Shown piece by piece: positions 5,370-64,000 of a stretch of DNA of 64,000 nucleotides. Source of the DNA: a virus; the IMG/VR virus record IMGVR_UViG_3300030108_001677, positions 1-64,000 of that record, one strand, 5' to 3'. A program made the position numbers and the translations under genes. Each line of letters starts with the position of its first letter. Positions within the stretch are counted from its first letter, which is position 1. The notes beneath the pieces are model-generated. The model saw only the letters and a program-made list of their open reading frames with translations. It was not told where the DNA came from and made no database searches.

Positions 5370-5951
5370 ATGGCGAAGAAGAACAATATTCCGAAAGCAC
5401 ACCGAAAACCACCTAAGCCAAAGGCGGTAAAGAAGCGCAAGAAAAGCCGCTTCGTTGACTTAGAACAGATCCGAAGATGGTTCATTACCAACCACTACGA
5501 TGTGGAAACACCCGAATCATTTGTTGTGAGCGAGGTTTTCTCTTGCTACAAACACCCCAAAGGTAAGCACAAACCACTGGCGACTTCAATCAAGCAAGCA
5601 ATCCGTAGGGAATGGAAACGCTGGGAAACACATCCACAATATGTTTCGCCAACGCCAACGGATAACCCTAATTTATTCCACATGAATTATCCTAACGGTA
5701 AGGATGTGTATGACAATCACATGAAGAAAACTAATCCCAACAATGCGCTGGGTAATGTTGATGCTTTAGCACGAAAGATACAGCGAGATCTGACAAAGAC
5801 AGAACAGCAAATCCAGCGACTAAAGAAGGAATTGCTTGAGGCTCAAAATAAACAATTGCGACTACAACAAAAACAGTGCATACTCAACAATTTCCTTCAA
5901 CACGATATGACCGTTGAAGTAATTTCTCTTGTGGAAAAAGACCTGCAATAA
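5370..5951 (+). CDS. Hypothetical basic protein with C-terminal coiled coil
   Basis: 193 residues from ATG 5370. The first 30 residues are strongly basic ('KAVKKRKKSR'). Residues ~125-175 form a predicted coiled coil rich in K, Q, E and L ('QIQRLKKELLEAQNKQLRL'). The middle has a 'FVVSEVFSCYKHP' segment. A longer frame from 5169 lies inside the upstream gene and is unlikely. A DNA-binding or scaffolding role is possible; the family is not recognised. Confidence 0.55.
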   Translation: MAKKNNIPKAHRKPPKPKAVKKRKKSRFVDLEQIRRWFITNHYDVETPESFVVSEVFSCYKHPKGKHKPLATSIKQAIRREWKRWETHPQYVSPTPTDNPNLFHMNYPNGKDVYDNHMKKTNPNNALGNVDALARKIQRDLTKTEQQIQRLKKELLEAQNKQLRLQQKQCILNNFLQHDMTVEVISLVEKDLQ

Positions 5952-5963
5952 GGTGGGTTGTTC

Positions 5964-6308
5964 GTGACAAAGCGCAAACCACTTGATGTCTATGAATCCG
6001 ATTTTATGGCGGCTGAAAGACATTACAGGAAAAAGAAAGGTGACTGGGAATCAGTCATACAAGAATTACATGCCGATAGAGGAATGCTTCTCGGTTCAAC
6101 ACAATACACCGACTTCACTGGGGTTGAGCGTTGTGAATCTCTATCTAAGATCGACACGGCTATCAAAGACGCACACGAACACATAGCGTGGTTGCGTGTG
6201 CTTCGTGATAAAGCGGTGAAGATACCCTTTCCATACAAAAATAGAGCGAGGCGTGTTAGGAGGAAAGTGTCGGCACTTAGTGACGAAGCACTGGGGGTGT
6301 CCGAATGA
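5964..6308 (+). CDS. Hypothetical protein, GTG start
   Basis: 114 residues. GTG 5964 is preferred over TTG 5958 because AAGGTGGG ends 6 nt upstream of it. Helical, charged, with repeated Arg/Lys at the C-terminus ('KNRARRVRRKVSAL'). Not recognised. It overlaps the next gene by ATGA. Confidence 0.5.
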   Translation: MTKRKPLDVYESDFMAAERHYRKKKGDWESVIQELHADRGMLLGSTQYTDFTGVERCESLSKIDTAIKDAHEHIAWLRVLRDKAVKIPFPYKNRARRVRRKVSALSDEALGVSE

Positions 6309-6577
6309 TATTGTGGACTGACCCCGAAGATGAACAGCGAGTTTGTTACATCAGTATCAGTGAGGCTGACCGTGCTGGTTGGCACGAAGCACTGGTCAAA
6401 TTCCCCGATAAGGAGGATTTGAAATTGGCTACGAGCATACTCAAAGAGCAAGGATATACTCGACCTAACGACAGGTGGGGTCGCCAATCGTGGCATAAAG
6501 AGGAATCCACATACATGAGGAAAACAGAAACCTATTGGACTATCAAGATGCGTAAAGGTGGTGAGAATGATGAGTGA
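6305..6577 (+). CDS. Hypothetical protein
   Basis: 90 residues, compact mixed fold with several Trp ('ILWTDPEDEQ', 'AGWHEALVKF', 'DRWGRQSWHKEE'). Not recognised. Start overlaps the upstream stop (ATGA), and its own 3' end overlaps the next small zinc-ribbon gene by 8 nt. Confidence 0.55.
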   Translation: MILWTDPEDEQRVCYISISEADRAGWHEALVKFPDKEDLKLATSILKEQGYTRPNDRWGRQSWHKEESTYMRKTETYWTIKMRKGGENDE

Positions 6578-6734
6578 AATAACTGATGTGGATTGCCCCG
6601 ATTGTGGGAGTCCTATGTATCGCTGGACTGATGGAGATCACCCAATCAAGGGAATGACACCAAGACTCAAATGCACACAATGTGGCCGTTGGATTTACCA
6701 CACGCATCGTGATTTATCGGCGGTGGAAAAATGA
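6570..6734 (+). CDS. Small zinc-ribbon protein
   Basis: 54 residues from the second of two adjacent ATGs (6567/6570), below usual gene-calling size. Clear paired knuckles 'CPDCG' and 'CTQCG' about 27 residues apart indicate a four-cysteine zinc ribbon, typical of small nucleic-acid or protein-binding regulators. It ends in ATGA with the next gene. The tight packing on both sides supports it as a real gene. Confidence 0.6.
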   Translation: MSEITDVDCPDCGSPMYRWTDGDHPIKGMTPRLKCTQCGRWIYHTHRDLSAVEK

Positions 6735-7399
6735 CAACAGAAGTGGATATTGGTGCTTTGCCACAGCCCAGTGAAGATGATTTTATTTGGGCGCACCGGC
6801 TATGGAATACCTTAGTCGTTAGTGACGAAACACAGGGTGTTTTGGGTGGCGTTTGGGATATGCCCAATGTTGGGCGTTACAGGAGAACGGGCGTTGCTGA
6901 ATTGACACTGATAGAGATTCATGGAAACATGGCGGCTGATAGGTTTGGCATCACGCTGTGGCATAAGCACGATTGGATTAGATTACTCGCTGACAGGATT
7001 GGGTGGTTTGTGCATAGCGACAAGGTGGAGAAGGCTGACTTCAATGAAGAAGCACAAGATCATGACGAACCAGCATTAGAGGACATAGGGCGAGTATTTG
7101 CTTGCGGTTGTGGTATGGTCTATACTTTACTGGATAATACAGCACAGGAAACGAGGCTCAAGGTGCCCGATGATGGACTGTGTTTGAATCCTAATTGCGA
7201 CTTAGTTATACCAGCACCGCACGCTGGTGTGTTAAATGCTGTAAATGACACAGCCGTGATTGCTAAAATGCAAGCGCAAGAATATATTGAATTGGCTATT
7301 GATGAAGATGAATACCCAGCCCCACCATTGGACACAAACGATGGGGATTTAGAGGCACTAATTGGCGAGCCGTTCACCGTTTTGAGCGAAGAAGAATAA
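6731..7399 (+). CDS. Hypothetical acidic protein with putative zinc knuckle
   Basis: 222 residues, not recognised. N-terminal ~100 residues look globular ('FIWAHRLWNTLVVSDET', 'FGITLWHKHDWIRLLADRIGWF'). A later 'ACGCG' and 'CLNPNC' pair, some 35 residues apart, could bind zinc. The last 45 residues are acidic. ATGA overlap with the upstream zinc-ribbon gene. Confidence 0.55.
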   Translation: MTTEVDIGALPQPSEDDFIWAHRLWNTLVVSDETQGVLGGVWDMPNVGRYRRTGVAELTLIEIHGNMAADRFGITLWHKHDWIRLLADRIGWFVHSDKVEKADFNEEAQDHDEPALEDIGRVFACGCGMVYTLLDNTAQETRLKVPDDGLCLNPNCDLVIPAPHAGVLNAVNDTAVIAKMQAQEYIELAIDEDEYPAPPLDTNDGDLEALIGEPFTVLSEEE

Positions 7400-7437
7400 A
7401 CGGTATGTTAATATAGGCTACCCTGTGTGGATAGACC

Positions 7438-7611
7438 ATGACAGGAGAGAACCCCCCGATTACAGGATTACAATGCGTTGGCTGTGGCCGACCTATGAAA
7501 GCAAACCCAACCCGTGCTGATATTGCGATGCAGGGTGAGAATGACAGTGAAAGATGCACCACTTGTATTGAAGTGGGCGATCTTTTCATGATACTGGGGG
7601 GAGAGGCATGA
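7438..7611 (+). CDS. Small zinc-finger protein
   Basis: 57 residues starting at ATG 7438. 'CVGCG' and 'CTTC' about 27 residues apart form a plausible zinc-binding site. It overlaps the next gene by ATGA (stop 7609-7611, start 7608). Family unknown. The shared Cys spacing with the 54-residue protein at 6570 suggests the same kind of ribbon. Confidence 0.55.
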   Translation: MTGENPPITGLQCVGCGRPMKANPTRADIAMQGENDSERCTTCIEVGDLFMILGGEA

Positions 7612-8399
7612 GTAAGAAAAGATTTACAGAATTTGTTGAAGGATTAAACGATGAGCAAATAGAGTCATTGACTGGCGTTGGGGCAACCTTGCGTGATTTT
7701 GGCACATGTCTTGAGGCTGAATGGCTGAAAAGGAACGGTAAATTACTTGACGCTGATGAGCGCAAAGAGAATGATGGCCGACCCAATGCTGTCGCTAACC
7801 CAGTGGTTGATGTCGAAATACCAAATGTAATGTTCGTTACCCTTCAACCATGTGACGAGAACAATAAGACGAGGGGGCATGGCTATGCTAACGATGTCGG
7901 ATTGTCGGATAAAGTCAAGACTGGTAATGTTCCGCCCACATTGGTAGCCGAGATCTTGCTTGACAAGATGATTGGTATGCTAAACGGTAAGGTTGCTGAC
8001 AAAGCACTTACCGAAGTCAAAGAAGCATTGAAGTCGGGTATGACCGTTGACAATGGTAAATTCAAATTCAACAAAGATGCGGCACCGCCACTAAAGCACG
8101 CTGTTGAAGTGGCCGAATGGATGGCTGAATTAAAGACATCATTCGTGGGCACTACCAACGGTGCTACACACACCAGCATGGCTGTTGTGCCTATTCCTAT
8201 GGATTACTCCACTCCACCAGTAGCACAAACCGACACGGCAGACATCCCATCCCCTGCTGATGTGCTATTGCCGATTCCGGCCAACGGGGGTTCGGCTGAT
8301 GTTTCGGCACAAACAGTGGAGGCAAGCCCCGATGTGGTCGCATCGGGCAATCCGCCTTCTTTTATTGATGTATTTGGACAAATGGAGGGGGTCGAATGA
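7608..8399 (+). CDS. Hypothetical protein
   Basis: 263 residues. Residues 1-185 appear folded (helical N-terminus 'FTEFVEGLNDEQIESL', then a beta/alpha core around 'NVMFVTLQPCDENNKT'). Residues 190-250 are Ala/Pro/Val-rich and low-complexity, ending in a conserved-looking 'FIDVFGQMEG'. That layout resembles a flexible linker with a terminal peptide, as in SSB-type tails, but similarity is not established. GGGGGGAG precedes the start. Confidence 0.55.
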   Translation: MSKKRFTEFVEGLNDEQIESLTGVGATLRDFGTCLEAEWLKRNGKLLDADERKENDGRPNAVANPVVDVEIPNVMFVTLQPCDENNKTRGHGYANDVGLSDKVKTGNVPPTLVAEILLDKMIGMLNGKVADKALTEVKEALKSGMTVDNGKFKFNKDAAPPLKHAVEVAEWMAELKTSFVGTTNGATHTSMAVVPIPMDYSTPPVAQTDTADIPSPADVLLPIPANGGSADVSAQTVEASPDVVASGNPPSFIDVFGQMEGVE

Positions 8400-28924: not shown

Positions 28925-29265
28925 TATCTCACTTCCATGACGACATCTATTCTTACTTCATTGGTAGCATTTTTACTGATAGGAATGAAAGACGACCTAA
29001 ACGCTGGGTTGTCTAATGGTGTGTTACCGTGTATAACTACTTCTTTGATTGCTTGTGCCGATACTTGGTCTGTTCCAAACAGTGCATTCACTGATATGGT
29101 TCTATCATCAACACGCTGAACAACTGGTGTTTTGGTTAGTGCTACATTACCCACACCGTTGTTTCTCCTTGAGGCTTCACCGCCCGTTGTTCCAAGACTC
29201 ATGTTTTTCACAAGGGTCTGTAAATGGTCTGTTAATTTTGCTTTGATTGAATCTAATATTGGCAT
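28924..29265 (-). CDS. Small tail/baseplate-like protein
   Basis: 113 residues. The second half ('ISVNALFGTDQVSAQAIKEVVIHG', 'FRSSFIPISKN', 'EVRIDVVMEV') has the pattern of phage tail-fibre or baseplate adaptor segments, where a strand describing 'EvgLf' precedes a strand ending 'i..ei'. GAGGTG precedes the ATG. Context: directly after the giant hub protein. Confidence 0.45.
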   Translation of the reverse strand: MPILDSIKAKLTDHLQTLVKNMSLGTTGGEASRRNNGVGNVALTKTPVVQRVDDRTISVNALFGTDQVSAQAIKEVVIHGNTPLDNPAFRSSFIPISKNATNEVRIDVVMEVR

Positions 29266-57220: not shown

Positions 57221-58381
57221 TCAACTCAAATCTCGGATTTTACCGCTTGATTTGAAGAACGCTTGCCACAATTCACCCATTGTGTGAAACATACCCATTT
57301 GACCCAATCTGTTAATTCCGAAAGGATCGCCTGTTTCAATACCGGACTCATGGTATAGTGTTGGTTTTGCAGTGCAGAACCACATGTAGTCAGTATCAAG
57401 GAAGTATAGTCTTGAAGAACCGCCAGTGCCCTTGTGGACATCCTTAGATGGGATAATTGGCACACCATTGTATGTTGCTACCATGAATCCACCTTGAATA
57501 CCCGGAACACCCTTTACACCGTTAACACCCGGCACAACTCGCTTCATTTCCATAAAGCGTTGTTGAGGCTGTAACAATTGCTGGATTGTTTCAAGAGTAT
57601 CGTAGCCAGTTAGGATAACCTTTGGCTGGCCTCCCGCTTCCCAAATTTGTCGGAACATTCCGTCAAGTATGTTTAGAGTTAGTGGCCTGTCAACACCGTT
57701 GTTAGCACCTGCATCAACTTGAGCATCATACCAGTGTTGTGCTGGCTTGGTTGTTCGTGTCAAATTGTAAATGTTGTGTCGGCTGATGTTGTCAATGTCA
57801 CTGAATGCCGCAGTTTCCACGAAAGCCGAAGAAGTGATACGGTCAAGAGATTCAAAGTCATTTCCAGCCACAGTGTTAACATCGGTAAGAAGCATCTTGT
57901 TGATGTGTTCTGTGTGGTGTTTTGCCATTTCCATCTTCATGACAGCCCTTGCATCACCAAGTCCATCGTCTTTGTCAGCAAGGAACATAGCAGTTTCAGT
58001 CAAGTCAAAGGTGTGAGCCACAGTCTTTGGCTTGGTGTTCACATGCTCAAATGTTGGCTTGCTTGTTTCCGGAATTGTTGCGTTCTCCGGCACACCGCCA
58101 CCCTTGTTGAAGTCGGGTTTAGCGGTGGTTACACGCCATCCGGACTTTTCCCACGGTTTCTTTGGTAGTATAGAGAATGCGTTAAACTCTTGATTCAATT
58201 GTGACCATACTTTACGACCAAAAATCGCTTGGTATGTTCCAGCAGTGCTGGACATCAACGGTGAGTCAGCCTTCAACAGATCTGTTCCGGAATACGCCCA
58301 TGCGTTTTGTCCGGCACCTGCACCGTAGTATAGTCTTTCCATATCTTCAATTGTTCTAATATAACCTGTGCTTCCACTCAT
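57221..58381 (-). CDS. mcp: Major capsid protein, HK97 fold
   Basis: 386 residues. Early N-arm, then 'VWSQLNQEFNAFSILPKKPWEKSGWRV', typical of the HK97 start of the folded region. The central 'FDLTETAMFLADKDDGLGD' helix region and the P/A-domain-like 'PKVILTGYDTLETIQQLLQPQQ' and 'YNGVPIIPSKDV...RLYFLDTDYMWF' also fit. It follows the protease/scaffold gene and has GAGGGGTGAT upstream. No separate scaffold gene is needed, as the protease carries one. Forms the icosahedral shell. Confidence 0.85.
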   Translation of the reverse strand: MSGSTGYIRTIEDMERLYYGAGAGQNAWAYSGTDLLKADSPLMSSTAGTYQAIFGRKVWSQLNQEFNAFSILPKKPWEKSGWRVTTAKPDFNKGGGVPENATIPETSKPTFEHVNTKPKTVAHTFDLTETAMFLADKDDGLGDARAVMKMEMAKHHTEHINKMLLTDVNTVAGNDFESLDRITSSAFVETAAFSDIDNISRHNIYNLTRTTKPAQHWYDAQVDAGANNGVDRPLTLNILDGMFRQIWEAGGQPKVILTGYDTLETIQQLLQPQQRFMEMKRVVPGVNGVKGVPGIQGGFMVATYNGVPIIPSKDVHKGTGGSSRLYFLDTDYMWFCTAKPTLYHESGIETGDPFGINRLGQMGMFHTMGELWQAFFKSSGKIRDLS

Positions 58382-58394
58382 CTTAAATCACCCC

Positions 58395-59717
58395 TCAAAG
58401 GTTTCCTCCGCCATATAACGCACGCTGTCCTAATTCCTCAAGCGCACGCCATCCGTCTAATTCATTTCCAAGTGCCGCAAATTCCTCATGGGTTGGCACA
58501 CGGATTTGGCTTTGTTCCGGCATAGGAACAGCCGATTTTGTAATAGTGGAGTTTTCTTGCTTTAGGTTCTCAATTTCTTGCTTTAGCATTTCAATCTGTG
58601 AAGAATAGTCTTTGGACTTTTGAACAGCCAATGCTTGCTGGGTTTCAGCCTCATATCGGTTTGCCCATTCTTTCTCAACCAGTGCTTTTACCGCTTCTTC
58701 GTCACGAATTGCGGAGTATGCTGAATATCCACGCTCAAGGGATTGTGGAGATAGGTCAAGTCCGGACTTGATTACATGCTTGCCACTGTTAGGTGCGCTC
58801 ATTTGCATGTTTGGAACCTGTGGTTGCTTGATAACATACTTGTTGGACACTGCGTTAGGTAGTGTTGGTGCTGGTGCTAATGTTGCATCTTCACCTGTTC
58901 CGTATAGGTCGCCTTGTCCTCGGTGTGTAAATCCGTGATTGCCGTCAACGCCAACCATGTAAGCCTTTCCGAGTCCGAAGTGGTCACGAAGTCCATCAAG
59001 GTCAACGCCTTGTTCGTGGGCAAATTTCTCAAGTGAGTCAATGTATGCCACTGCCGCTTCTTCTTCTTTAGCAAGTGTAGTTTCCTCCATTACTGGCGGT
59101 GCTTCCACTGCTACTTCTTCTTCCATGTGTTTGTTTATGCGTGCGAGCGCATCTCGTATTTCCGTCAATGTTTCTGCTTGTTCAGTCATAATATCATCAT
59201 CCATCTTCAATAGTGTATAGGTCGATTCGGGGTTTATTCCTTTTTTACACAGGGTAATTTCATGCAACTCCATGTCCGTGATTTCACGGTGGGTTCCATG
59301 TTCCGGTGTTGTTTTACTAACACGGAATAGAGCCTGTCCTCCAATAGAGAAGGCTCTCAACTCTCCTGTGCGAATTTGTTTTTGGACTTCACGGGCTTTC
59401 TCGATGTCATTCCTAATTCGGCAAATGACAAACAAGCCGTGATCGTCAACAGTGGATTTCCATACTCGGCCATCACTGTCTGTGTAATTTGGCAAGACTT
59501 CGCCCACTTGAATACCACTGTGTGCCAATTGCACATTACGGTATGCTGGGTCTTTCATGAAGCCATCAAATGCTTTCTTTAGTGCTGATACTGGGATTCT
59601 ATCTCCCTGCTTGTCAACCATATCAACCGAAGCATAGCCCGCTATAACAAGGTCGTTGCCAGCATCCGATTTCAAAATGAAATCGCTACCAACTGCTGTC
59701 CATGTTGCGGTCGCCAT
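58395..59717 (-). CDS. Prohead protease with C-terminal scaffold
   Basis: 440 residues. The S78-type protease domain covers the first ~170 residues: 'VDKQGDRIP' near the start, H66 in 'QLAHSG', S124 in 'RAFSIGG', and 'ELHEITLCKKGINPES' (E150/E153), the HK97-family H-S-E arrangement. The rest is Glu/Lys/Gln-rich with a coiled coil around residues 370-410, a scaffold for capsid assembly that the protease later digests. Adjacent to the capsid gene, as in many siphoviruses. GGTGAG precedes the ATG. Confidence 0.85.
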   Translation of the reverse strand: MATATWTAVGSDFILKSDAGNDLVIAGYASVDMVDKQGDRIPVSALKKAFDGFMKDPAYRNVQLAHSGIQVGEVLPNYTDSDGRVWKSTVDDHGLFVICRIRNDIEKAREVQKQIRTGELRAFSIGGQALFRVSKTTPEHGTHREITDMELHEITLCKKGINPESTYTLLKMDDDIMTEQAETLTEIRDALARINKHMEEEVAVEAPPVMEETTLAKEEEAAVAYIDSLEKFAHEQGVDLDGLRDHFGLGKAYMVGVDGNHGFTHRGQGDLYGTGEDATLAPAPTLPNAVSNKYVIKQPQVPNMQMSAPNSGKHVIKSGLDLSPQSLERGYSAYSAIRDEEAVKALVEKEWANRYEAETQQALAVQKSKDYSSQIEMLKQEIENLKQENSTITKSAVPMPEQSQIRVPTHEEFAALGNELDGWRALEELGQRALYGGGNL

Positions 59718-59744: not shown

Positions 59745-62700
59745 TTAACCGCTTTGGGGAGGCGGGGGTAGTGGAGGCATCATTTCATCTTGCACCGAAT
59801 CATCCATTGGCACTTCAACTTCTTGCTCATCCTTCATTTCTTGTTCAGTCTTTCTTGGTAAGCGAATTGTGGCTCGGTTGCCCTCAACTTCTAACTCTCC
59901 CTCAAGATCTTCACCCCTACCATCTTTGGTGCTGATGCGAATATGTTGTGCCCCGCCTGTTGGTATTGTATCTTCGGGTTGATATGGGTCATAGAAAGGC
60001 GTGGCTTCTTCATCCACCAACTCGGTCGGTCCTGTTGGATTAGTGAACATATCCATCATACCCGACCAACCACCACCAGTAATGCTACCGGTCAATCTTG
60101 CCAATGGTGAGCCTTTGCCACCTTTCTCGGTAACATCATCGTCAATTGCTTCATTGACAGTCCATTTACCATTCTCATCACGCTCAAGTCCGTATTCTGT
60201 GCCAAACTGCTCAACATCTTTTTCAGTTAGTCCTTCGACAGCATTAGTCAATTCGTCAATGGACATAGACTCATCTTTCTCGGCAATAAGCCTCCTTGCC
60301 GCTACCAGTTTTTGCTCAACGGGTTTAGGATCTCCTTCGGCATCTAACAGTGACGCTTTGTATAGTGTTGACTTGACTGTGGTTAGTTTGGGTGGGTATG
60401 GTGTCAATTGTTTTATGTCATACTTCAACAAATGCACACCGATAGCACCCCATACGGGTATTTGTCTTTCAGCGTGCTGTGCTAAAGGACTGGCTGGTTC
60501 AATACTCTCAATGTCAAAACCCTCACCATCCCATTCACCTTTTACTACCAAAGGTGCAGGGTGCCCACTGTATTCTAACACGATGTTTTGGTTACGAATA
60601 GACACTGTTGGGAATGGCGCATACATCTTTTTCATGTCGCCATCCGGTGTGTAACACACCCATTTGTGGTGAGTTTCCTTGCCCTTCATGAATGTTGAAG
60701 TGGCATCACGCAACCACAAATCACCACCCAAAGCATCCATGTTTGAGCGCAAACCACCAGCATCGCTGAATTTACAATCGGCTGGCATAGGGAATGAAAT
60801 GCCTTCATCGGTTTCATACAAGGTGCGGAGTATAGACAACCTATCCTCCAATTTTTCCATGTGTATATCATCGCCTTTATGCACTAACAAATCAATAGCC
60901 CGATAATGCCCATCATTTAGAACACCATCAAATAGGCAATCGCCATCTTGCTTTCTAACTCCCTCTTTTACCTTTAATGGTAGTGATACATTTTTGCCCC
61001 TACCGTTGGTTGCCTTAACATGACCACCTTTCTTTTCGACAAAGACACGCTTGCCTTCGGGTTTCTTTTGCACTACCCAATCACCAGTAAAGCCTTTGAG
61101 ATCTGCAATAGATGAAAAGTCGTATATGGTATGTGCTGGTATTATTGATTGCTCAAATACACCTGTCGGTTTGTAATCATCGGATTTGAATAAGTCACCA
61201 CTTATCATAGAGTTTGCACCCATCATATCCGTAGCCTCAAGCGCAGGTATGCCGTTGACCTTTTCTTTGATTTGGTAATCTTGAAATGTTGGGTGAACCA
61301 TGCCTACATGGCCTTCATGTGCGGTTCTTTGTAATGTTTCAAACGGTTTGTCTTTTACATCAAAGCGTATTGCATTGTTTTTCCTATCCCAATTATATGC
61401 CAATGTCGCTGGCATTTTATGACCCCAAGCATCTTTATCTCCTGTAAGATACACTGGTGGCATTGTAGCCATTGATGTTGGTGAAATAGGTCCGATTGGC
61501 ACATCACGCTGTGCCAAACCTAAGCCCATCACCATAGGTGCAAATGATGTCATGCTGTCGTCACCACCAGCCCTCATCAATTGCATGTTAGCCGCTTTAG
61601 CCAACTGTTGAATGTTTGCTCTTGCTATTGTATTGCCTAAAACATCTTTAGGATCTGTTCCAAATAACAACTCCGGACCGTATTCTTTGCTCAACTGTGC
61701 CGCCATTTGTTGCATCATTCGGCCTAAGTGTGCATCGGTCTTTTCATAATGGTCATTGTGATATGTGTGAAATTCCTCATCACCGGGATGTCGCTCTCTT
61801 GTCGGTCCGATTCTTGGTTGCCCTGCATCTGTATGTGATGCGATTATCCTACCCAAACCATTCGGATTGGTAGCGAAAGCATAAGATGGTATTATCATAC
61901 GCTTACCTGTGCCTTGAATCTCACTTGGGTGATAATGTGCCCCGTTTGATATTGTTGACCACAAAGCCCTTCGCCTGTTGAAACCACGAACATAAGGATG
62001 TTCCGAACCTGCCGCCCACCCTGTTGAAATGGCTGAACGGTGCGGGTGTCCTTTCATCATTTCGTGGTTTGCAGTTTGAGGAAAAAATGATGAGCCACTA
62101 CTATGCCAAGCATCTTCACTGTCATTTAATGGATGATTGCGGTCAGCCAACCAACCAAACAACTCATCACCAAGCCAACCTTTGAATGCGGCAGGGTATG
62201 AATCTCGCATCATTGTTTGGAGGGATTGAGCATCACGACCAACCCCTCCCCAGTATTGGAAAGGCAACCAATAGTGATGAGTCATTGATGGCTCAATCGT
62301 GTTATTGTCACCCATAACATACGGGCTTTTCAAATGAGTCAAACCCGAAGCCGTATCTTCGGGCGATACAGGTCCGTGGCGATCTGATGGGCGTTCCCAC
62401 CAACGGGCTATCGGTAAGAAACGCTCAAACCAATTGCGCTTTGCTCTATCCCACGATACACCCGATGTTGCTTTGAAATCATTTTTTATCTTTCTTGCAT
62501 CGGCACCGTTTGGATTTTCAGTTTGACCCAATTTCTTGAGGGTGTTCATGAATTGCTCACGCTGGTCAATACCTTGCCATTCTAAACCAAACAAGTATGA
62601 CAATAGGCCAAGCCTACCTTGTTTGCCAGCCCACTGCTCTTTCTTTTGCTCAAGATATTCTTCATCGTCAAGATATGAAAAACGGTTCATCCTATCAGCC

Positions 62701-63251
62701 ATATACAAATCATGTAGTGATTCGATTGGCCTACCTACAATATCAGCATACTCTTTGGGTATCTTGCCCAGCCTTTGAGCCTCTTTCATTGATTTGATAA
62801 TTGATTGACCTTCTTCATCTTCCTCAATCAAATGTAAAAGGTGGTCAACAAATGATGGTTCACCATATTCAGCCCCGTGTAGCAAAGGCATTGTTGGCAA
62901 TTCGTATGACATTGGGTGTCGCTTACCAAACCTGTTATCTTCACTTGCTACCGGCCAATCCTGTGCGTATGTGCGTGAGAACCTTCTTTGACCAGCGATA
63001 TAGTCCTCATACCCCTGTGGTAAATTGAGCGTGGTCATTGGTGATGGCTTGTCCATATCAAGCATCGAATACTGTGGTGGTGCTGTCATTGGTAGCATAC
63101 CAAGTATTGCCTGATCTTCTTTCTCTATTTGTGTGCTATCGCCATAGTAATCGTCTAACGCTTTGAGATAGATGTCGTGGTCTATGTCTTGATTTTGAAC
63201 AATTGACAAAAATGTGTCTGTTCTTATCCTTACAAATTCTTCACGGTTCAT
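59745..63251 (-). CDS. 1168-residue head-region protein with ligase-like nucleotidyltransferase domain
   Basis: 1168 residues in the position before protease and capsid genes. Residues ~1-690 are unrecognised and rich in Trp/His/Met. From ~720, 'GDWVVQKKPEGKRVFVEK' holds K730-P-E-G-K-R735, matching the ligase/capping KxDGxR motif I with Asp changed to Glu. Then come 'DCLFDGVL' (near 775; motif III, DGE changed to DGV), 'YRAIDLLVHKGDD' (motif IIIa) and 'EDRLSILRTLY'. The order and spacing fit the adenylation domain of ATP-dependent ligases. The C-terminal ~160 residues are acidic and end in 'PPLPPPP'. Portal-type signatures were not seen. GGGGGG upstream. Confidence 0.6.
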   Translation of the reverse strand: MNREEFVRIRTDTFLSIVQNQDIDHDIYLKALDDYYGDSTQIEKEDQAILGMLPMTAPPQYSMLDMDKPSPMTTLNLPQGYEDYIAGQRRFSRTYAQDWPVASEDNRFGKRHPMSYELPTMPLLHGAEYGEPSFVDHLLHLIEEDEEGQSIIKSMKEAQRLGKIPKEYADIVGRPIESLHDLYMADRMNRFSYLDDEEYLEQKKEQWAGKQGRLGLLSYLFGLEWQGIDQREQFMNTLKKLGQTENPNGADARKIKNDFKATSGVSWDRAKRNWFERFLPIARWWERPSDRHGPVSPEDTASGLTHLKSPYVMGDNNTIEPSMTHHYWLPFQYWGGVGRDAQSLQTMMRDSYPAAFKGWLGDELFGWLADRNHPLNDSEDAWHSSGSSFFPQTANHEMMKGHPHRSAISTGWAAGSEHPYVRGFNRRRALWSTISNGAHYHPSEIQGTGKRMIIPSYAFATNPNGLGRIIASHTDAGQPRIGPTRERHPGDEEFHTYHNDHYEKTDAHLGRMMQQMAAQLSKEYGPELLFGTDPKDVLGNTIARANIQQLAKAANMQLMRAGGDDSMTSFAPMVMGLGLAQRDVPIGPISPTSMATMPPVYLTGDKDAWGHKMPATLAYNWDRKNNAIRFDVKDKPFETLQRTAHEGHVGMVHPTFQDYQIKEKVNGIPALEATDMMGANSMISGDLFKSDDYKPTGVFEQSIIPAHTIYDFSSIADLKGFTGDWVVQKKPEGKRVFVEKKGGHVKATNGRGKNVSLPLKVKEGVRKQDGDCLFDGVLNDGHYRAIDLLVHKGDDIHMEKLEDRLSILRTLYETDEGISFPMPADCKFSDAGGLRSNMDALGGDLWLRDATSTFMKGKETHHKWVCYTPDGDMKKMYAPFPTVSIRNQNIVLEYSGHPAPLVVKGEWDGEGFDIESIEPASPLAQHAERQIPVWGAIGVHLLKYDIKQLTPYPPKLTTVKSTLYKASLLDAEGDPKPVEQKLVAARRLIAEKDESMSIDELTNAVEGLTEKDVEQFGTEYGLERDENGKWTVNEAIDDDVTEKGGKGSPLARLTGSITGGGWSGMMDMFTNPTGPTELVDEEATPFYDPYQPEDTIPTGGAQHIRISTKDGRGEDLEGELEVEGNRATIRLPRKTEQEMKDEQEVEVPMDDSVQDEMMPPLPPPPQSG

Positions 63252-63265
63252 CTAATCCCCCCTAT

Positions 63266-63982
63266 TTAGAGGCGATTAGCAATTGACTCCATGAGGTTAG
63301 CAATCTCATCAACAAGTCCGGGATTTGTAGCCCCTTTTTTCAATTCCGTTAGCCTTTCTTCGATTGGTGCGATATTCCAATTGCCATCAGCACGGTCGCC
63401 TCCGTCAATCAATTGCATGTGTAAAGATGAGCCTTTAGCATCATAGCCTGTCTTAGCAAACGCTGGCATCTTTGCCTTTTCGCTAATTGCGTTGATATTT
63501 TGTGCGTTTTGTTCGTAGTGTGGTATGCGCCCATTGGTTTGGTAATTAACCGCCCTAATTCCATAGTGGTCAACAAACTGTGGCACACCATTATCGCTGA
63601 TTGACTCTTGCTCATACTTTACTAAGTCAAGCCCAGTCTTTTGTGATATAAAGAGGGAGGTAGCATCGGCTGATGCCTCTTTCATCCAGTCGGGTTTAGG
63701 TGCTAATATGCTTGACCCATCACCTTCTGTGCTGAAATCCGAGCGTTGTCCGAAACCGGGTCGTGGTGTTCGTGTTATTTCTCTCCTTGCATCGCCCGTT
63801 AATGTGTTCTTTGAACCCGGCACTGCTTTACCGGTTCCACGGATTTTGTTTCCGTGTTCATCTTTATCCTCCGAGTCAGTGTAGTGTTGCCGACTCGCCA
63901 TGTTAAACGCTCTCGGATCGACGGTATATGCCCCGCCCATACGGTCGCCTTTGCCACCACCCATCGCTTCGTCTTGACTCAT
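63266..63982 (-). CDS. Hypothetical protein, probably 5'-truncated by window edge
   Basis: 238 residues from ATG 63982; the frame stays open to the right edge and no ribosome binding site precedes that ATG, so the gene probably begins outside the window. Polar N-terminal ~110 residues ('MGGGKGDRMGGAYTVDPRAF'), then 'IRAVNYQTNGRIPHYEQNA'. The C-terminus is helical ('IEERLTELKKG'). Not recognised; first gene upstream of the ligase-domain protein, where portal or terminase-linked genes are usual. Confidence 0.5.
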   Translation of the reverse strand: MSQDEAMGGGKGDRMGGAYTVDPRAFNMASRQHYTDSEDKDEHGNKIRGTGKAVPGSKNTLTGDARREITRTPRPGFGQRSDFSTEGDGSSILAPKPDWMKEASADATSLFISQKTGLDLVKYEQESISDNGVPQFVDHYGIRAVNYQTNGRIPHYEQNAQNINAISEKAKMPAFAKTGYDAKGSSLHMQLIDGGDRADGNWNIAPIEERLTELKKGATNPGLVDEIANLMESIANRL

Positions 63983-64000
63983 TCTTCGGCTGGTTGAATT

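Follow-up and report, generated by a model that had tools for sequence, protein, structure and literature searches.

A probable pseudo-ligase module in the head-gene cluster of a tailed virus, with an apparently intact counterpart in sister viruses

Introduction

The DNA ligase superfamily is old and well known, and few viral genes are mapped as well as those that build the heads of tailed viruses; to our knowledge, a DNA ligase is not expected among them. What, then, is a ligase-type nucleotidyltransferase (NTase) domain doing in a protein encoded just before the head maturation protease? We address this question in a stretch of 64,000 nucleotides (hereafter the window), positions 1 to 64,000 of the IMG/VR virus record IMGVR_UViG_3300030108_001677 (G000), which is 86,382 bases long in full. 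An original prediction made from the letters of the window had proposed a virion- or packaging-associated ligase or nucleotidyltransferase at this locus.

Results

Gene context and likely host

The gene occupies positions 59745–63251 on the minus strand and reads from an ATG start through a clean frame of 1168 codons to a stop. It belongs to a minus-strand head cluster with the order TerL, a 440-aa gene, portal, three small genes, a 487-aa gene, the 1168-aa gene, an S78/XkdF-type protease and an SU10-type major capsid protein (MCP). The head maturation protease (Peptidase_S78/XkdF-like; 58395–59717, minus strand) lies directly downstream and is followed by the HK97-fold MCP of the SU10_MCP family (57221–58381, minus strand). 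On the other side, the neighboring gene (63266–64000, minus strand), which belongs to no family and encodes 487 aa in full, runs past the end of the window, and the portal (G000:66070–67872) lies beyond it, ~2.8 kb upstream of the 1168-aa gene. The suggestion in the original prediction that our protein replaces the usual gene before the protease does not stand, given that TerL and the portal are present upstream and the protease and MCP directly downstream. No family in PHROGs, NCBIfam or Pfam covers the protein above threshold, and annotated phage records contain no convincing direct homologue; from its gene context, it is a putative head protein.

The plus-strand half of the window encodes a family B DNA polymerase (PolB), an AAA clamp-loader-like ATPase and an N6/N4-type DNA methylase. 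The nearest relatives of the polymerase come from haloarchaeal tailed viruses, whereas TerL (G000:69181–70617, beyond the window) is closest, among annotated phages, to that of the Bacteroides phages SJC03/DAC16-23, with 27% identity over 97%. A Poseidoniales single-cell genome includes a 106-kb contig that encodes a 38%-identical relative of the whole 1168-aa protein, with the same gene order around it. On the strength of this relative and of the PolB affinities, a marine archaeon is the likely host of the window virus. Among the closest known systems are the magroviruses (Magrovirales) and the Satyavativiridae of Poseidoniales, tailed viruses of marine archaea whose head modules are of the HK97 type. 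Elsewhere in the window, three very long minus-strand ORFs of 3119, 1691 and 923 aa lie between positions 29265 and 46439.

A ligase-type fold at residues ~700–935

Residues 1–680 of the protein (61212–63251, minus strand), which are mostly helical and conserved throughout the window-type relatives, give a confident predicted structure (pTM 0.82), for which a fold search against the PDB returned no match. They are followed by an adenylation-type NTase domain at residues ~700–870 (60642–61154, minus strand), delimited from an AlphaFold2 model with Foldseek, Pfam and hhalign. The model, which covers residues 650–960, has a mean pLDDT of 77.6 and reaches ~90 in the NTase core. Foldseek returned 109 PDB matches at E ≤ 0.001, headed by archaeal and human DNA ligases (4eq5, 3.6e-9; 6bkg, 4.9e-9; 2cfm, 5.2e-9), with guanylyltransferases and snurportin complexes further down; in BFVD, the matches are viral DNA ligases and capping enzymes, the best of them an unnamed 827-aa protein (1.3e-15). 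The NTase domain is clear in the PDB matches, and the OB domain is recognized from the span of the match. We take a β-strand region that follows the NTase domain in the model's secondary structure (residues ~880–935; 60447–60614, minus strand) as a putative OB-fold remnant, because the ligase structure matches extend over it. The TM-scores are modest (about 0.4–0.47 relative to the query length); disorder in the first 46 residues of the model accounts for part of this, and a different angle between NTase and OB probably does so too.

At the level of a single sequence, PDB and PHROG searches with the 1168-aa protein gave no match, and the Pfam model DNA_ligase_A_M (PF01068) reached E = 0.28 with the whole protein (11.3 bits against a curated cut-off of 26.2) and 0.013 with the domain alone, both below the curated cut-off. 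Searches of IMG/VR for homologues provided 15 loci and then 55, and a profile of the degenerate domain finds at least 584 relatives among the contigs scanned. With Pfam applied to an alignment of 40 of these domains, DNA_ligase_A_M matched 29 (best 1.1e-5), SPN1_m3Gcap_bd matched eight (best 0.0027) and mRNA_cap_enzyme matched five. The match to DNA_ligase_A_M, for which the original prediction had suggested a search, is below cut-off for the window protein and evident in most of the 40 domains, and the adenylation fold that the prediction placed inside a head-cluster protein is borne out by both structure and profile searches. By model and profile, residues ~700–935 read as an NTase domain of the ATP-dependent DNA ligase type plus an OB-like region.

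An apparently intact ligase at the same position in sister viruses

A scan of genome contigs identified a viral contig (L151), binned into a Maricaulis MAG, that encodes an 842-aa protein at the same gene position, with the portal upstream and the protease and MCP directly downstream. This protein displays the motifs K-Y-D-G-I-R, L-D-A-E-L, F-D-I-M, S-E-G-V-V-I-K and K-W-I-K-F-K. It matches DNA_ligase_A_M at 1.6e-30, the Archaeoglobus fulgidus ligase 3GDE at 7e-17 and TIGR00574 at 2.9e-33, though the last score is under that model's cut-off. BLASTP aligns it with the window protein (P0001) at 70.5 bits, and hhalign relates the degenerate family to the intact ligase family at 99.3% probability (E 4e-20). 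The intact type is represented in IMG/VR by 17 close loci and, by profile, 536 relatives. Since motifs I–V are intact in all 65 distinct sister-type (~840-aa) domains, the idea of a head-cluster ligase may hold for these sister viruses. Motif VI (R-x-D-K) is not recognizable in the sister family, in which EIPEVDAPE aligns with ALREDKGPE of 4EQ5 in a weak stretch of the alignment. The ~840-aa protein apparently contains an intact ligase domain, and its exact chemistry is putative.

The order TerL, portal, NTase-bearing protein, protease and MCP is kept in all loci that reach these genes, in both virus types, with identities between the types of 43% for the portal, 31% for the protease and 39% for the MCP. 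Many of the loci compared for gene order are overlapping versions of single contigs, and their counts are not independent. We base the orthology of the window and intact proteins on the NTase domain and synteny, because nothing recognizable as residues 1–680 is present in the intact type; a profile comparison of this part with the ~840-aa protein gave no match.

The convergent or chance origin of the likeness to ligases, which the single-sequence Pfam value of 0.28 would suit, is ruled out by the predicted structure, the family-wide Pfam matches and the direct homology with the intact ligase that occupies this position in the sister viruses, and we give it a vanishingly small probability.

Several further features of the intact-type contigs may be recorded here. 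The Maricaulis sp. IN14 MAG bin (L151, L153–L158) is virus-contaminated and holds several viral contigs with an intact head-cluster ligase, and L151, L154, L156 and L157 match the intact-family profile strongly. A frameshift, which may be an assembly error or real, divides the ligase ORF of the intact-type contig L164 (5810–8354) into 5810–7912 and 7875–8354. By eye, the C-terminal end of the L151 protein (residues ~700–842) resembles the 3'-phosphoesterase-like part of LigD, and this end has no family match.

Loss of catalytic residues under purifying selection

The window protein has the NTase and OB fold in common with the archaeal/eukaryotic-type ATP-dependent DNA ligases (PF01068, TIGR00574; A. 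fulgidus 3GDE, T. sibiricus 4EQ5), and motif I (K-x-[DE]-G-x-R) and motif IIIa are recognizable in it, whereas the sister homologue keeps motifs I–V. It differs from these ligases in that it lacks the Glu of motif III, the Glu/Lys of motif IV and the Lys of motif V, in that no N-terminal ligase DNA-binding domain is recognized and in that the domain is part of a 1168-aa head-cluster protein.

The reading frame and the motif positions are as the original prediction gave them, from K730 of KPEGKR and the D775-G of DGV to AIDLLVHKGDD, starting at residue 785, and EDRLSIL. Its assignment of motifs I, III and IIIa is right for K730, which is the motif I lysine, and fails at motif III, where the acid of D-x-E is a valine; motifs IV and V, of which it made no mention, are degenerate. 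All of the motifs are encoded on the minus strand. Motif I (K730-P-E-G-K-R735; 61047–61064) begins with a lysine that is not conserved across the family. Motif III (D775-G-V777; 60921–60929) keeps an invariant Asp and maps by hhalign onto D-A-E of the intact ligase, with Val in place of the catalytic Glu, and motif IIIa (A785-I-D-L-L-V-H; 60879–60899) includes the invariant D787. At the motif IV position (G843-D-L-W-L-R848-D849; 60705–60725), the E-G and Lys of active ligases are replaced, the first six residues mapping onto E-G-V-V-I-K. At the motif V position (K863-W-V-C-Y-T868; 60648–60665), the stretch W864-V-C-Y-T868 maps onto W-I-K-F-K, with both catalytic lysines replaced (C866, T868) and W864 invariant.

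These replacements extend through the family. Alongside the window type there is a giant type of ~1,790–1,915 aa (L053–L058) in the same gene slot, which has the pseudo-ligase domain and a large N-terminal extension and is otherwise collinear and conserved; the stretch at residues ~174–300 of the 1168-aa protein is common to the giant type and has no detectable counterpart in the intact type. We surveyed 71 window-type domains, 70 of which have a residue at the K730 position. The motif III Glu is missing from all 71 (Y, V, F or T instead; Val777 in the window protein), the motif IV Lys is Arg in all 71 (within GDLWLR in the window protein) and the second motif V Lys is likewise missing throughout. 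The motif IV Glu column varies and depends on the alignment, and we left it out of the proof. The nucleophile position is Lys in 46/70 domains and Met, Val, Arg or Gln in the remaining 24; in the giant relatives, it is Met in six of six. The R735 position is His in 16 window-type domains. Conservation of K730 and the G-x-R pair among homologues, the lack of which the original prediction had named as speaking against it, therefore largely fails.

The domain is nonetheless under strong purifying selection, with dN/dS values for the NTase region of 0.01–0.08 across six pairs. These values are lower than those of the C-terminal part in all six pairs and lower than those of both the N- and C-terminal parts in five. 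The loss of catalytic residues together with retained constraint indicates a role other than that of a ligase.

Could the window protein still be an active adenylyltransferase or ligase, in which K730 attacks ATP and neighbors such as E732, D844 and R848 stand in for the missing residues? The constraint would agree with this, as would the survival of K730, E732, G733 and R735 in the window and most of its own subclade and the invariance of R848–D849 throughout the degenerate clade. Against it stand the three residues missing from every window-type domain and a nucleophile lost in a third of the window type and all giant relatives, and we regard an active enzyme as improbable. A working ligase in the window virus is not supported, and the ligase or AMPylator of the original prediction is disfavored for this virus by the same losses. 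Some nucleotide-linked role of the domain is conceivable, because motif I survives in most of the window subclade, unlike what pure decay would leave.

Phylogeny and ligase inventory

We built a maximum-likelihood tree of 75 NTase domains at <85% identity, with 36 window-type and six giant rows. The outgroup consisted of ligases from T7 and bacteria and of stand-alone viral ligases. The window and giant types form one clade (100/99), and the intact ~840-aa type forms its sister clade (98/89). The simplest reading is that the catalytic residues were lost once, before the degenerate clade diversified. The root, and hence the direction from intact to degenerate, is less sure than the clades because the outgroup has long branches, which the tree program flagged.

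Two PF01068 ligases, that of the head cluster and a separate one of 512–527 aa, are present in 11 intact-type records, including all nine records of 84 kb or more; some shorter intact-type records have the head-cluster ligase only. The separate ligases belong to the same superfamily, score over the PF01068 cut-off, are encoded outside the head cluster and group with canonical ligases (98/72, under the full-support mark). Given their presence, the sister viruses probably do not use the head-cluster ligase as their replicative one. No PF01068 match over cut-off occurs in the 17 window- and giant-type records searched (up to 108 kb, the window virus included), nor does any match over cut-off to NAD-dependent ligase or RNA-ligase families occur in the window- and giant-type records searched. 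Window-type viruses thus seem to have lost both ligase activities, in records that may be incomplete.

Discussion

Our preferred reading, to which we give a probability of roughly 70%, is that a second DNA ligase encoded in the head cluster decayed into a noncatalytic pseudo-ligase module in the lineage of the window virus. It builds directly on the fold, the homology, the synteny, the residue loss, the tree and the purifying selection described above. An ancestor would have gained a second ligase of the ATP-dependent type in its head-morphogenesis operon, between the portal and the prohead protease, and the sister lineage would still have this ligase with motifs I–V intact. In the window lineage, the module, placed behind a large helical N-terminal domain, would have been stripped of the Glu of motif III, the Glu/Lys of motif IV and the lysines of motif V, as well as of the nucleophilic Lys in many members, and would have been retained as a noncatalytic part of a head-assembly protein. 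Its most likely job in packaging and maturation would be to hold protein partners or DNA, be it an end, a nick or a duplex on its way through the portal. We infer from the same results that the window protein would lack activity, would bind DNA and would be present in the procapsid or virion.

The pseudo-ligase reading admits two versions, which the present data do not separate. The module may be a nucleotide- or nucleic-acid-end-binding pocket without chemistry, in the manner of snurportin-1, whose dead guanylyltransferase-type fold binds the m3G cap. The m3G-cap-binding domain of snurportin-1 (PF21974) is likewise a reused dead member of the same fold, and the weak matches seen here at the family level (SPN1_m3Gcap_bd in 8/40 members) and to snurportin complexes in structure would agree with such a pocket. 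So would the position of the invariant residues G733, D775, D787, R804, R848, D849 and W864 in or near ligase motifs, although they are placed from the alignment and not from coordinates. Snurportin-1 is a cellular import adaptor, and its gene context is not shared by the viral domain. As a specific proposal, the pocket is tentative.

The alternative version is purely architectural: a β-rich module that would touch the portal, scaffold or protease and have nothing to do with nucleic acids. The gene always adjoins those of the maturation protease and MCP and the catalytic residues are free to vary, as such a contact would allow; yet the sister form, probably the ancestral one, looks like a DNA-acting enzyme, and the NTase domain is the best-conserved part between distant members. 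We hold this version to be just as doubtful as the pocket.

The available text of papers on Poseidoniales viruses places ligase among the replication genes or mentions none, and describes neither a head-cluster ligase nor a pseudo-ligase (PMC10160649, PMC12999244, PMC10768690, PMC13108676). Searches of the literature for tailed viruses with a ligase or pseudo-ligase in the head cluster or virion returned nothing relevant. As far as we have checked, the place of a ligase domain in the head cluster and its series of decay are new.

For the biology of these viruses, a broader proposal is possible, at clearly less than even odds: abundant marine archaeal tailed viruses may encode a dedicated second ligase or other covalent nucleotidyltransferase in their head-assembly and packaging machinery, which would join or mend nicks or the ends of the genome when the DNA is packaged or ejected, and the window lineage would run a dead, DNA-holding copy of it. 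Both families are common in ocean data, where the degenerate domain has at least 584 relatives among the contigs scanned and the intact domain has 536. Across a whole family, the module would show an enzyme that has become what is probably a structural part, and the intact and decayed forms in collinear viruses make up a natural series in which to ask whether the sealing or holding of DNA accompanies packaging or ejection in some tailed viruses.
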